From: Blastopirellula sp. J2-11
Lineage (GTDB): Bacteria; Planctomycetota; Planctomycetia; Pirellulales; Pirellulaceae
Length of the DNA: 64,000 bases
Reading direction: 5' to 3'
Assembly (NCBI RefSeq): GCF_024584705.1
Contig: NZ_CP097384.1
Location: 4,898,001 to 4,962,000, forward strand
A program made the translations under genes and the position numbers. Under the pieces are notes generated by a model, which searched no databases, was not told the origin of the DNA, and saw only the letters and a list, made by a program, of their open reading frames with translations. Positions 7,418-51,493 of the stretch are shown here, one piece after another. How positions within the stretch are numbered: position 1 is the first letter of the stretch; every line of letters starts with the position of its first letter.

Positions 7418-8794
7418 TTATTCGCCGAACGTATTCTTCTTCCGCAAGATATGGTGGTAATGCTGCGCAAAGCGGTGCGCTTCATCGCGCACATACTGCA
7501 ATAGCCGCAGCGCGTAAGCATGCCGACTCAGTCTTAGCGGTTCCGACTCGCCAGGGCGGAAGATCTCTTCGTCCTTCTTGGCTAACGATACCAATGTCGG
7601 CGGTTCGATCTGCAAGTCGCGAAACGCCGCCAGCGCCGCGTTCAATTGCCCTTTGCCGCCATCGATTAGCAGCACATCCGGAAAGACTTCGCCGTCGGCG
7701 TGCAGCTTTTTGAAGCGACGCGCGACCACTTCATGAATGCTGCGAAAGTCGTCGATTCCTTTCACTCCTTGGATCTTATAGCGACGATAGCCCGGCTTGA
7801 ACGGCAATCCGTCCAAAAACTGCACCAAGCTCGCAACCGTTTCGCCTCCCTGCAAATGGGCGATGTCGACTCCTTCGATCGACCGCGGCGTCGTCGACAA
7901 TTGCAGCACTTTGCGCAGCCCGGCTAATCCCTTTTTGGGATCAATGTAAAACACCTCCGGCTGCGCGTGCGTTTCCAGTTCGCCCCGTTCGTCCAGTCGC
8001 TCAAGCATATCGATCTCGTCGCGCAGCTTCGCCGCTTTTTCAAACTGCAACTCCTTCGACGCTTCCAGCATCTCTTCGCGCAGCTGTTTCAACAGACGAT
8101 CTCGGTTCCCTTCCAAAAACATCTGCAGGCGACGAATGTCTTTGCGGTACTCTTCTTTCGAGATCCGCAAGTTGCAAGGCGCCGTGCATTGATCGATGCT
8201 CGCCAACAAGCAAGGGCGAAACCACCGCCAACGCTCGTCGTTCTCGTCAATGTCGAGACTGCAGGTCCGAAACTTGAAAATCCGCTGCAGCACCTGGATC
8301 GCGCCCCGCAGCGCCCCCGCATTGGCGAACGGCCCGTAAAGTTTGGCGTTCTTTTCTTGCGGTTCGCGGGTGAATTCGACCCGCGGGAAATCTTCCCGCT
8401 GCGAAATCATCAAATAGGGGAACGACTTGTCGTCTTTGAGGTCTTTGTTGAACTTGGGCTGGATATCTTTGACCAACCGCGATTCCATCAGCAGCGCATC
8501 GACTTCGCTATCGGTCTCCACAAAGTCGGCGTCGGCGATTTCTTTCACCCAATAGCCGGTACGCACGTCCACCGCCGCTTCCGCGTTGAAATAGCTGCTG
8601 GCTCGGCTGCGTAAGTTTTTCGCTTTGCCTACATAGATCACTCGGCCTTGGCTATCTTTCATCAGATAGACGCCCGGCGTGGTCGGAAATTTTCGCACCT
8701 TATCGGCCGCTAGCACAAACGGGACATGCTCTTGCGGCTTCCCCTCGGTCGAGTGGCTTTCGGGCTCGGCAGGCGTTTCGGCAGGTTCAGTCAT
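7418..8794 (-). CDS. uvrC: Excinuclease ABC subunit C-like, lacking the C-terminal HhH domain
   Basis: 458 residues from ATG 8794 (a GTG two codons earlier is also possible). Domains in order: GIY-YIG nuclease at about 36-115 (PGVYLMKDSQGRVIYVGKAK), a cysteine-containing middle region, a UVR motif for UvrB contact (FEKAAKLRDEIDMLE) at about 255-270, then the RNase H-like 5' nuclease domain with EGVDIAHLQGGE, LLIDGGKGQL and RDEAHRFA supplying the usual Asp/Asp/His residues. Typical UvrC is about 600 residues and ends in a tandem helix-hairpin-helix domain. Here the protein stops about 15 residues after the catalytic His, so that DNA-binding part is missing. The stop is clean, with no in-frame continuation of homology seen downstream. 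Both nuclease centres look intact. See findings for the hairpin directly upstream of its start. Confidence 0.9.
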   Translation of the reverse strand: MTEPAETPAEPESHSTEGKPQEHVPFVLAADKVRKFPTTPGVYLMKDSQGRVIYVGKAKNLRSRASSYFNAEAAVDVRTGYWVKEIADADFVETDSEVDALLMESRLVKDIQPKFNKDLKDDKSFPYLMISQREDFPRVEFTREPQEKNAKLYGPFANAGALRGAIQVLQRIFKFRTCSLDIDENDERWRWFRPCLLASIDQCTAPCNLRISKEEYRKDIRRLQMFLEGNRDRLLKQLREEMLEASKELQFEKAAKLRDEIDMLERLDERGELETHAQPEVFYIDPKKGLAGLRKVLQLSTTPRSIEGVDIAHLQGGETVASLVQFLDGLPFKPGYRRYKIQGVKGIDDFRSIHEVVARRFKKLHADGEVFPDVLLIDGGKGQLNAALAAFRDLQIEPPTLVSLAKKDEEIFRPGESEPLRLSRHAYALRLLQYVRDEAHRFAQHYHHILRKKNTFGE

Positions 8795-8800
8795 GCGCAC

Positions 8801-49628: not shown

Positions 49629-50690
49629 GTGTGGGAACAAGCCGTGACTGACTTTTGGCGACTCGAACAGCAAATCCATGCTCGTTTGCCTGATTTGCCG
49701 GTCGAATTGCAACAACGAATCTCTCAAATTCCCCCCGGCAAAGTCGCCACCTATGGGCGAATCGCCCAATCGCTCGGCGATCGCCTGGCGAGTCGCTGGA
49801 TCGGCGAATGGCTGCTCCACTCCCCCCTTGCGACCACAATCGCCGCACATCGCGTCGTACGAGCAGCAGGCGAACTGGGACTCTTTCATACCGGCAGCAC
49901 CGTCGACAAGCGACGCTTGTTAGCGGCCGAGGGCGTTGCCGTCGGCAACGATCGTGTCGATTTGTCGAAATATGAATTTGCGGATTTCACCGGCGCCGCG
50001 CCGCTGACCGAACTTCGCGATTGGCAAAACGAACTCGCCGCCCAAAATCGCTTGAACTCGCTGACGCGGAAGCCAGAGCTCGTCGCGGGACTCGACGTTT
50101 CATATCACGGCGGCGAGGGAGTCGTCGCCTATGTGCTGTTCGACTACGACTCGCGTGAAGTTGTCTGGTCGCATTGCGTGCGGCGAACCGTTTTCTTTCC
50201 TTATATAACGTCTTATCTTTCGTACCGCGAATTGCCATTGCAGATGGCCGTGCTGGCGGAAGCAGCGCAAGCAGATCGTTTGGCCGACGTCCTGCTGGTC
50301 GATGGCAGCGGCGTTCTTCATCCTCGCCGCTGCGGTATCGCCAGCATGCTATCGGCGCTCACCGGACTTCCCACGATCGGCGTCACCAAAAAGCATCTCT
50401 GTGGGTCATTCTCTTCCAACGATCTGTCGACCGAGCATTTTTGTCATCTGCATGTCGAAAGTGAGCAGGGCCCCACTAAGTTGGGCGCGGCGATCTTACC
50501 AACCAAGAAAACCAAGCGGCCGATCTTTGTGTCGCCCGGCGGAAACGTCGACTTCGACGACGCTGAAACAATCTGCGCTCATTTCATGGTCGGCAAACGT
50601 CTGCCAACGCCGATTGCTGCGGCCGATCGACAGAGTCGACAAGCCGCTAGCGGCGAAACGAATCGGGGTGGACGAGCGAGCGAACAATAA
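49629..50690 (+). CDS. Alkyltransferase-like (Cys-less) domain fused to endonuclease V
   Basis: 353 residues from GTG 49629. Residues about 25-105 are the DNA-binding domain of O6-alkylguanine alkyltransferases: ISQIPPGKVATYGRIAQSLG with Tyr42, a candidate arginine finger Arg56 (ASRWIG), and PLATTIAAHRVVRAAG, in which the PCHR active-site motif is A72-A73-H74-R75, so the acceptor Cys is Ala73. Residues about 125-335 are endonuclease V: GLDVSYHGG (Asp156), PYITSYLSYRE (Glu201), LLVDGSGVLHPRRCG (Asp225), PTIGVTKKHLCGS. The nuclease cuts near deaminated bases such as inosine. An active AGT-EndoV fusion is known from the archaeon Ferroplasma; the Cys-to-Ala domain makes this one an ATL-type sensor. 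The C-terminal ~20 residues are polar and disordered. Confidence 0.92.
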   Translation: MWEQAVTDFWRLEQQIHARLPDLPVELQQRISQIPPGKVATYGRIAQSLGDRLASRWIGEWLLHSPLATTIAAHRVVRAAGELGLFHTGSTVDKRRLLAAEGVAVGNDRVDLSKYEFADFTGAAPLTELRDWQNELAAQNRLNSLTRKPELVAGLDVSYHGGEGVVAYVLFDYDSREVVWSHCVRRTVFFPYITSYLSYRELPLQMAVLAEAAQADRLADVLLVDGSGVLHPRRCGIASMLSALTGLPTIGVTKKHLCGSFSSNDLSTEHFCHLHVESEQGPTKLGAAILPTKKTKRPIFVSPGGNVDFDDAETICAHFMVGKRLPTPIAAADRQSRQAASGETNRGGRASEQ

Positions 50691-50746: not shown

Positions 50747-51493
50747 ATGCTGCGTCTTTGGCTTGTGCTCGCTATCAGCGTCCTGATCACGAGCGCCCTA
50801 TCCGCCGCCGATTTTCAGGTCACCAACACGATCTTTGTCGGTGGGCAGAACCAACCGGTCTCGACCACGCAGACCATCTTTAAAGACAATGTCGTCTTTG
50901 ATCACTCGATGGGGCAATCCAGTCAGGCGATGATCATTGACTTCGACGCGAATCGAATCACGCTGCTAGACCCAGAGCGCAAATGCCAGCTTTCGCTCGA
51001 CATTCGGCGGATCATCGAAATGTCGACCTTTCTGCGAACCAACGGAGACTTCAAGACGCCGCTGTTGCAATTTTGCAACAATCCCGATTTCAAGCTCCAA
51101 GTCGAACCGCAAAACAATCGGATCCTCTTCACAGGCAATCCGATCAGCTATGACCTGACCACCCAGCCGATCGCCGACAAACGCGTGGTGGAAGACTACG
51201 CACGCTTTTGCGATTGGTCGGCGGATATCAACTTTACCTGTGCCGCCGGATTTCCCTCGCAAGCGCGCAAAGTGGTCAACGGCTACTTTGGAGAGAATAG
51301 CGTCCTGCCAAAAGAAATCCGCCGCGTGATTCGCAACGGCAATCCGGCCCAAAACCAGACGGTCCGCAGCCAGCACGTCTATCGCTGGATTCTCAACCAG
51401 ACCGATCTGGTGACCGTGCAGAAATTGCGTGACCAGCAGGCCGACTTTGCTCAGGTGACGCCAGAAGAGTGGATAAAAGGACAAGCGAAGTAG
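50747..51493 (+). CDS. Secreted protein of unknown function
   Basis: 248 residues, GAGGAA before ATG. The signal peptide is MLRLWLVLAISVLITSALSA. The mature protein has beta-rich segments (FQVTNTIFVGGQNQPVSTTQ, QAMIIDFDANRITLLDPERK, LQVEPQNNRILFTGNP) followed by a helical half with VVEDYARFCDWSADINF and a C-terminal HVYRWILNQTDLVTVQKLRD. Four Cys could form disulfides. I do not recognise it. It lies 56 bases after the ATL-EndoV gene and 71 bases before the DUF6807 gene, all on the same strand. Confidence 0.75.
   Translation: MLRLWLVLAISVLITSALSAADFQVTNTIFVGGQNQPVSTTQTIFKDNVVFDHSMGQSSQAMIIDFDANRITLLDPERKCQLSLDIRRIIEMSTFLRTNGDFKTPLLQFCNNPDFKLQVEPQNNRILFTGNPISYDLTTQPIADKRVVEDYARFCDWSADINFTCAAGFPSQARKVVNGYFGENSVLPKEIRRVIRNGNPAQNQTVRSQHVYRWILNQTDLVTVQKLRDQQADFAQVTPEEWIKGQAK

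Follow-up and report, generated by a model that had tools for sequence, protein, structure and literature searches.

The window, a stretch of 64,000 nucleotides from Blastopirellula sp. J2-11, carries on its forward strand an open frame of 353 codons (49629-50690) in which two domains follow one another without interruption. The first is an AGT/ATL C-terminal DNA-binding domain (PF01035, aa 29-103, 49713-49937), matched with an E value of 6.2e-18 and 64.9 bits against a curated cut-off of 27, and phmmer likewise finds 2kif (3.9e-07) and Atl1, 3gva (7.7e-06). The second is an endonuclease V (EndoV) domain (PF04493, aa 135-334, 50031-50630), matched at 4.2e-47 and also above its curated cut-off. 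Both profiles thus pass their cut-offs in one frame with the AGT part first, as in AGT-EndoV and ATL-EndoV fusions, and as the original prediction had proposed for a complete EndoV. The source genome consists of one contig of 6.43 Mb. The same two-domain frame recurs in three congeners (87, 71 and 69% identity), where the acceptor motif reads AAHR, AAHR and GAHR. Accordingly, a frameshift or assembly error is ruled out, and no sequencing error separates the domains.

The gene probably starts at the GTG at 49644 rather than at the GTG at 49629, since the codon equivalent to 49629 is no start in any congener (GCG in L006, the congener at 87% identity, and a non-start in both others), whereas the codon at 49644 is a start in all of them (GTG, GTG and ATG). 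The frame of L008 also has a stop downstream of the codon equivalent to 49629. The start at 49644 gives a protein of 348 aa (49644-50690) with the acceptor column at residue 68; residue numbers used here are those of the 353-aa frame. Scanning the surroundings of the gene for promoters and terminators yielded nothing notable above shuffled controls. The genes adjoining the fusion encode a sugar epimerase, a protein without a Pfam match and a DUF6807 protein. A protein without a Pfam match (50747-51493, forward strand, 248 aa) adjoins the fusion in both genera whose fusions lack the acceptor cysteine (12 of 12 relatives tested).

At residues 72-75 the domain reads AAHR where alkyltransferases (AGTs) have PCHR. 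The acceptor column, read from the sequence and from an alignment of 106 fusion rows, is Ala73 (GCA, 49845-49847), and no cysteine occurs anywhere in the AGT-like domain, so that the loss of the alkyl acceptor noticed earlier stands. The alignment shows that four other residues are retained, namely Tyr42 (49752-49754), Arg56 (49794-49796), His74 and Glu101, while the column of the asparagine hinge holds Ser65. Tyr42 corresponds to the base-flipping Tyr114 of human AGT and Arg56 to the arginine finger, human Arg128; the roles are those given in passages of PMC10779285, and the human numbering was matched in this analysis.

The domain therefore has neither of two features of an AGT, the nucleophilic Cys in an I/V-PCHR motif and the asparagine hinge ahead of the active-site loop. 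It does have the features of an ATL: an AGT C-terminal domain without the N-terminal domain (28 residues precede PF01035, or 23 from the likely start), a replaced acceptor Cys, though by Ala and not by the Trp usual in ATLs, and a retained Tyr and Arg without the Asn hinge. The ATL of Thermus thermophilus has Ala at the acceptor position. Passages of PMC10779285 describe ATLs by the same traits, a kept Tyr and Arg, a lost Cys and no Asn hinge. The likeness to ATL proteins (E. coli ATL; S. pombe Atl1, PDB 3gva; 2kif by sequence match) concerns the AGT C-terminal domain only, with its lost Cys, kept Tyr and Arg and missing Asn hinge. ATLs differ in that they stand alone, mostly have a Trp acceptor, recruit nucleotide excision repair (NER) and have no attached nuclease.

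The EndoV part is intact. Asp156 (50094-50096), Glu201 (50229-50231), Asp225 (50301-50303), His231 and Lys254 are all present, and the same residues occupy these columns in 106, 106, 104, 105 and 105 of the 106 distinct fusion rows, the remainder at Asp225 being one gap and one Asn. The three catalytic residues predicted at the outset are hence confirmed, in columns that are nearly invariant. The AlphaFold2 model of the window protein has a mean pLDDT of 95.7 and a pTM of 0.91, with nine residues below pLDDT 70 and residues 346-348 below 50. With Foldseek, its nuclease part matches the EndoV of E. coli and T. maritima at TM-scores by target length of 0.83-0.87. The best 50 matches listed are EndoV and Argonaute-type entries, and the assignment of the AGT part rests on the sequence matches (PF01035, phmmer) instead. 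The nuclease part thus combines the Asp-Glu-Asp triad with the EndoV fold and shares both with T. maritima 2w35 and E. coli 4xpu, which lack the extra N-terminal domain. EndoV enzymes cut at the second phosphodiester bond 3' of inosine, an activity predicted for the window protein. The fusion is the sole EndoV match in the source genome.

Fusions of this type have been described before. The AGTendoV of Ferroplasma acidarmanus (Kanugula 2005, as cited in passages of PMC10779285 and PMC3489907) is reported to be active both as alkyltransferase and as nuclease. Like the window protein it combines an AGT C-terminal domain and EndoV in one chain, but it keeps the acceptor, whereas in the window protein the acceptor column holds Ala and the domain is free of Cys. 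An ATL-EndoV fusion has also been reported in archaea (Tubbs 2009, as cited in passages of the 2023 review PMC10779285), in which an AGT-like domain without a transferase role is, as here, joined to EndoV; that fusion is archaeal, while the window protein is bacterial and has an Ala acceptor. According to the same passages, the EndoV of the archaeal fusion might act like the NER nuclease XPG; for archaeal ATL-EndoV fusions, a direct link from recognition to nuclease has been published as an idea before (PMC10779285). Among the open-access papers listed, judged by their titles or the beginnings of their abstracts, we found no description of a bacterial AGT-EndoV fusion, nor is one described in the passages seen of PMC7216122, PMC8307549, PMC3489907 and PMC7690668. 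The fusion type is known, the window protein represents a bacterial variant, and the new elements are the repeated loss of the acceptor and a linked His/Cys cluster, both described below.

The fusion is common among relatives of the source organism. In a same-order sample of 296 genomes, 54 gave a match, and in 42 of these (the window's genome included) an AGT-type domain stands in front; the acceptor of these 42 is Cys in 26, another residue in 15 and unreadable in one (G261, whose frame is broken). The other 12 genomes, all of family code f7, have an EndoV-only match, six of them read and six judged by the match start. A same-family sample gave matches in 16 of 199 genomes, one of which (G310) is weak and EndoV only. 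A phylum sample of 294 genomes added nine fusions, all from family code f21 in the same class. Six are Cys types, two (L189 and L190) are Trp types, and the ninth, L191, is shortened around the acceptor. In a scan of named species genomes, 582 candidates encode a relative, and 80 loci are listed. Labels among the loci listed include Planctomycetota, Bipolaricaulota/Acetothermia, Fraserbacteria, Thermoplasmatota, Methanomassiliicoccales, Aenigmarchaeota, Nanobdella and a few others.

After 15 duplicates and six EndoV-only rows were dropped, 106 distinct fusion rows remained, with Cys at the acceptor in 77, Ser in 14, Ala in five, Val in five, Trp in three and Thr in two. The original prediction had set a Cys-less fusion against the Cys-keeping one of Ferroplasma. 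The loss in the window protein stands, but the family turns out to be broad and most of its rows keep the Cys. Alignment of the PCHR column gives a similarly divided answer: homologues with an intact Cys are common in the family, in planctomycetes often without the P, yet none is found in the two genera around the window. All 13 fusions seen from these related genera are Cys-less (four of four in the source genus, g1, and nine of nine in the sister genus, g2), and all 13 keep the Tyr and Arg of base flipping. The replacement is Ser in g2 as against Ala in the window protein.

Other acceptor states and motif variants occur further afield. Two archaeal rows have a Trp acceptor, L113 (PWHR) and L132 (NWWR). 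Two Cys-less groups labelled Bipolaricaulota/Acetothermia have Ser and Val acceptors (L081, L083, L086, L088, L090 and L091; L085, L087, L093 and L119). L100, L102, L103, L080, L112 and similar rows read PC(Y/F)K in place of PCHR, and the column of the activating Glu is Asp in 20 of the 106 rows.

To place the acceptor states we used a tree of the EndoV columns only, with 68 rows (65 planctomycete-type and three others). L045 (incomplete), G261, L191, the EndoV-only rows and the remaining rows that are not planctomycete-type were left out, and the bootstrap of this tree has not settled. The tree calls for at least six changes of acceptor state (5-7 over the bootstrap trees), three of them forced by well supported branches. 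Parsimony counts do not distinguish gain from loss; we take the changes to be losses, since Cys predominates and is ancestral in AGTs, and on this reading the Cys appears to have been lost several times in planctomycete-type fusions. The g1 and g2 rows form a group whose support is moderate (94/89, not starred).

Gene order was compared for the same groups. Two downstream genes are common to g1 and g2 (three of three g1 relatives and nine of nine g2 loci tested). The upstream epimerase gene is common to g1 and L173 (76% identity), a Cys-type fusion from the same family, in which the downstream pair is absent from the stretch examined; upstream of the g2 fusions there is only a distant epimerase (28-30%). 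The simplest reading is that the Cys was lost from a standing fusion and that no new fusion arose, with L173 not firmly placed on the tree.

Despite the missing acceptor, the AGT-like domain is maintained. In the nearest pair, L005-L006, dN/dS is 0.13 for the domain and 0.18 for EndoV. Pairs within g1 give 0.10-0.23 for the domain (five of six finite, one saturated) and 0.16-0.18 for EndoV, and g2 pairs with finite values give 0.08-0.27 and 0.09-0.23. Measured by the raw proportion of differences that are non-synonymous, the linker is less constrained than either domain in nearly all pairs. dS is saturated in many pairs, and the result leans on L005-L006 and the other finite pairs. A dN/dS about as low as EndoV's means that the domain is not in decay: in g1 and g2 it is under purifying selection as strong as that on EndoV, and a decaying domain is disfavoured by the pairs with finite values.

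Loss of transferase activity from the fusion is affordable for the source genome, which has two further AGTs with an intact PCHR. A PF01035 scan of 41 fusion genomes found at least one match besides the fusion in 40 of them, and the eleven g1 and g2 genomes scanned have two further matches each. The UvrC gene, originally described as a neighbour of the fusion, is not one: it lies at 7418-8800 on the reverse strand, about 41 kb away, and a positional link between the two is ruled out. It encodes 460 aa with GIY-YIG, UVR and RNase H domains, gives no further Pfam match at 0.001 and ends soon after the RNase H domain. In UvrC proteins a helix-hairpin-helix region usually forms the C-terminal end.

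What might a Cys-less domain do in front of EndoV? ATLs mark O6-alkylguanine, and its removal needs other enzymes. The best reading, which we put slightly short of an even chance, is that the window protein belongs to a widespread AGT-EndoV family and that its domain, having lost the acceptor, persists as a binding module without catalysis and serves as a sensor to position the nuclease. The domain would scan DNA through its minor-groove helix-turn-helix and would flip an altered purine into the old pocket, O6-alkylguanine being the obvious candidate. The attached EndoV would be held beside the flipped purine and would nick the strand close by, presumably cutting because the lesion is bound, and excision would follow the nick. 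The intact frame, the kept Tyr, Arg, His and Glu, the intact EndoV site, the low dN/dS and the conserved gene place all argue for such a sensor. Against it, the acceptor read from the alignment is Ala and not the Trp of most ATLs, and Ser takes its place in the sister genus. Cys types exist, so the fusion is not tied to a sensor mode, and EndoV occurs without the domain in relatives (12 of 54 matched genomes) and therefore does not need it. EndoV also has a pocket of its own for recognising deaminated bases, and joint action of the two pockets on one lesion is hypothetical. Finally, the flipping residues do not always outlast the Cys: of the 20 planctomycete-type rows without it, only 16 still have the Arg finger and 17 the Tyr (Phe in three).

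The fully intact EndoV site also fits a domain that only aids DNA binding, tethering EndoV and raising its cutting of deaminated bases without recognising alkylated ones. The loose pocket of the Cys-less members, with A, S, T, V or W at the acceptor and a variable hinge column, and the conservation of Arg56 in 13 of 13 g1 and g2 rows would suit this quite possible, if doubtful, alternative. A pure tether, however, needs neither His74 nor Glu101, acceptor-site residues in AGTs that are each kept in 19 of the 20 Cys-less planctomycete-type rows. The domain could also be a normal ATL that recruits NER through UvrA or UvrC, both of which ATLs bind (passages of PMC10779285), with EndoV as a separate activity on the same chain. 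A UvrC gene is indeed present in the genome, but gene order, in itself weak evidence, provides no tie, as other genes adjoin the fusion, and we consider this improbable. Least of all do we expect the AGT domain to be a relic on its way out, with EndoV alone mattering. The repeated loss of the acceptor residue, the frame broken within the domain in G261 and the shortening around the acceptor in L191 would suit it, yet in g1 and g2 the domain has a dN/dS close to that of EndoV and is full length in 13 of 13 copies seen. For the sensor reading, the occurrence of the same fusion with and without an acceptor in related bacteria offers a direct test of whether a Cys-less sensor hands a lesion to the nuclease of its own chain.

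The two damaged copies have further particulars. In L046/L177 (G261) the frame is broken inside the AGT-type domain, and both decay and sequencing error are possible; in L191 (G533) EndoV is still found downstream of the shortened domain.

The relatives that keep the acceptor share a His/Cys cluster. Across the 45 Cys planctomycete-type rows (43 distinct, with identical copies L059/L180 and L068/L173), His occupies the Asn-hinge column (human Asn137) in 45, a Cys stands two before the acceptor in 45, and His-x-His is complete in 43. The hinge His, the second Cys and the His-x-His are each found in none of the 20 Cys-less planctomycete-type rows. The cluster is likewise found in none of 42 AGT-type proteins from other loci (30 of the non-fusion PF01035 matches, namely those listed as loci, together with two proteins of the window's genome and ten of other planctomycetes), of which 40 read PCHR and two have Trp. 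The base-flipping Tyr column is Cys in 13 Cys rows, all with both the acceptor Cys and the second Cys. Since the Asn hinge is absent and the Arg finger and Tyr are only partly kept (35 and 31 of 45), the Cys types are not ordinary AGTs and their transferase activity is putative. The AlphaFold2 model of one of them, L009, has a mean pLDDT of 96.6 and was read as secondary structure.

In a test of independent pairs, the three supported pairs, too few for significance, gave a mean agreement with the acceptor of 3.0/3 for Cys143 and 2.9/3 for His-x-His (median p 0.25). The association was not seen on the 106-row tree, because Cys types outside the planctomycete-type group mostly have an ordinary Asn hinge and no cluster. 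Judged from the alignment, the cluster reads like a unit lost whole, possibly a metal site that includes the acceptor. One could go further and suppose that in planctomycete fusions the acceptor Cys sits in a metal site (the hinge His, the His two on and the Cys-x-Cys) as a metal-activated alkyl acceptor. On several occasions that site would have disappeared whole, and each time a suicide repair domain would have become a sensor of lesions guiding the fused nuclease; the window protein would be one product. We regard this extended scenario as unlikely, and we know of no metal-activated alkyl acceptor in any AGT C-terminal domain. If the cluster of the Cys types does bind metal, it would represent a second chemistry for the AGT fold. 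Example Cys-type fusions with the cluster are L009, L012, L014-L016, L053, L054 and L057. The planctomycete-type motif is also found in L056 (labelled Nealsonbacteria) and L058 (Fraserbacteria), which may be misbinned.
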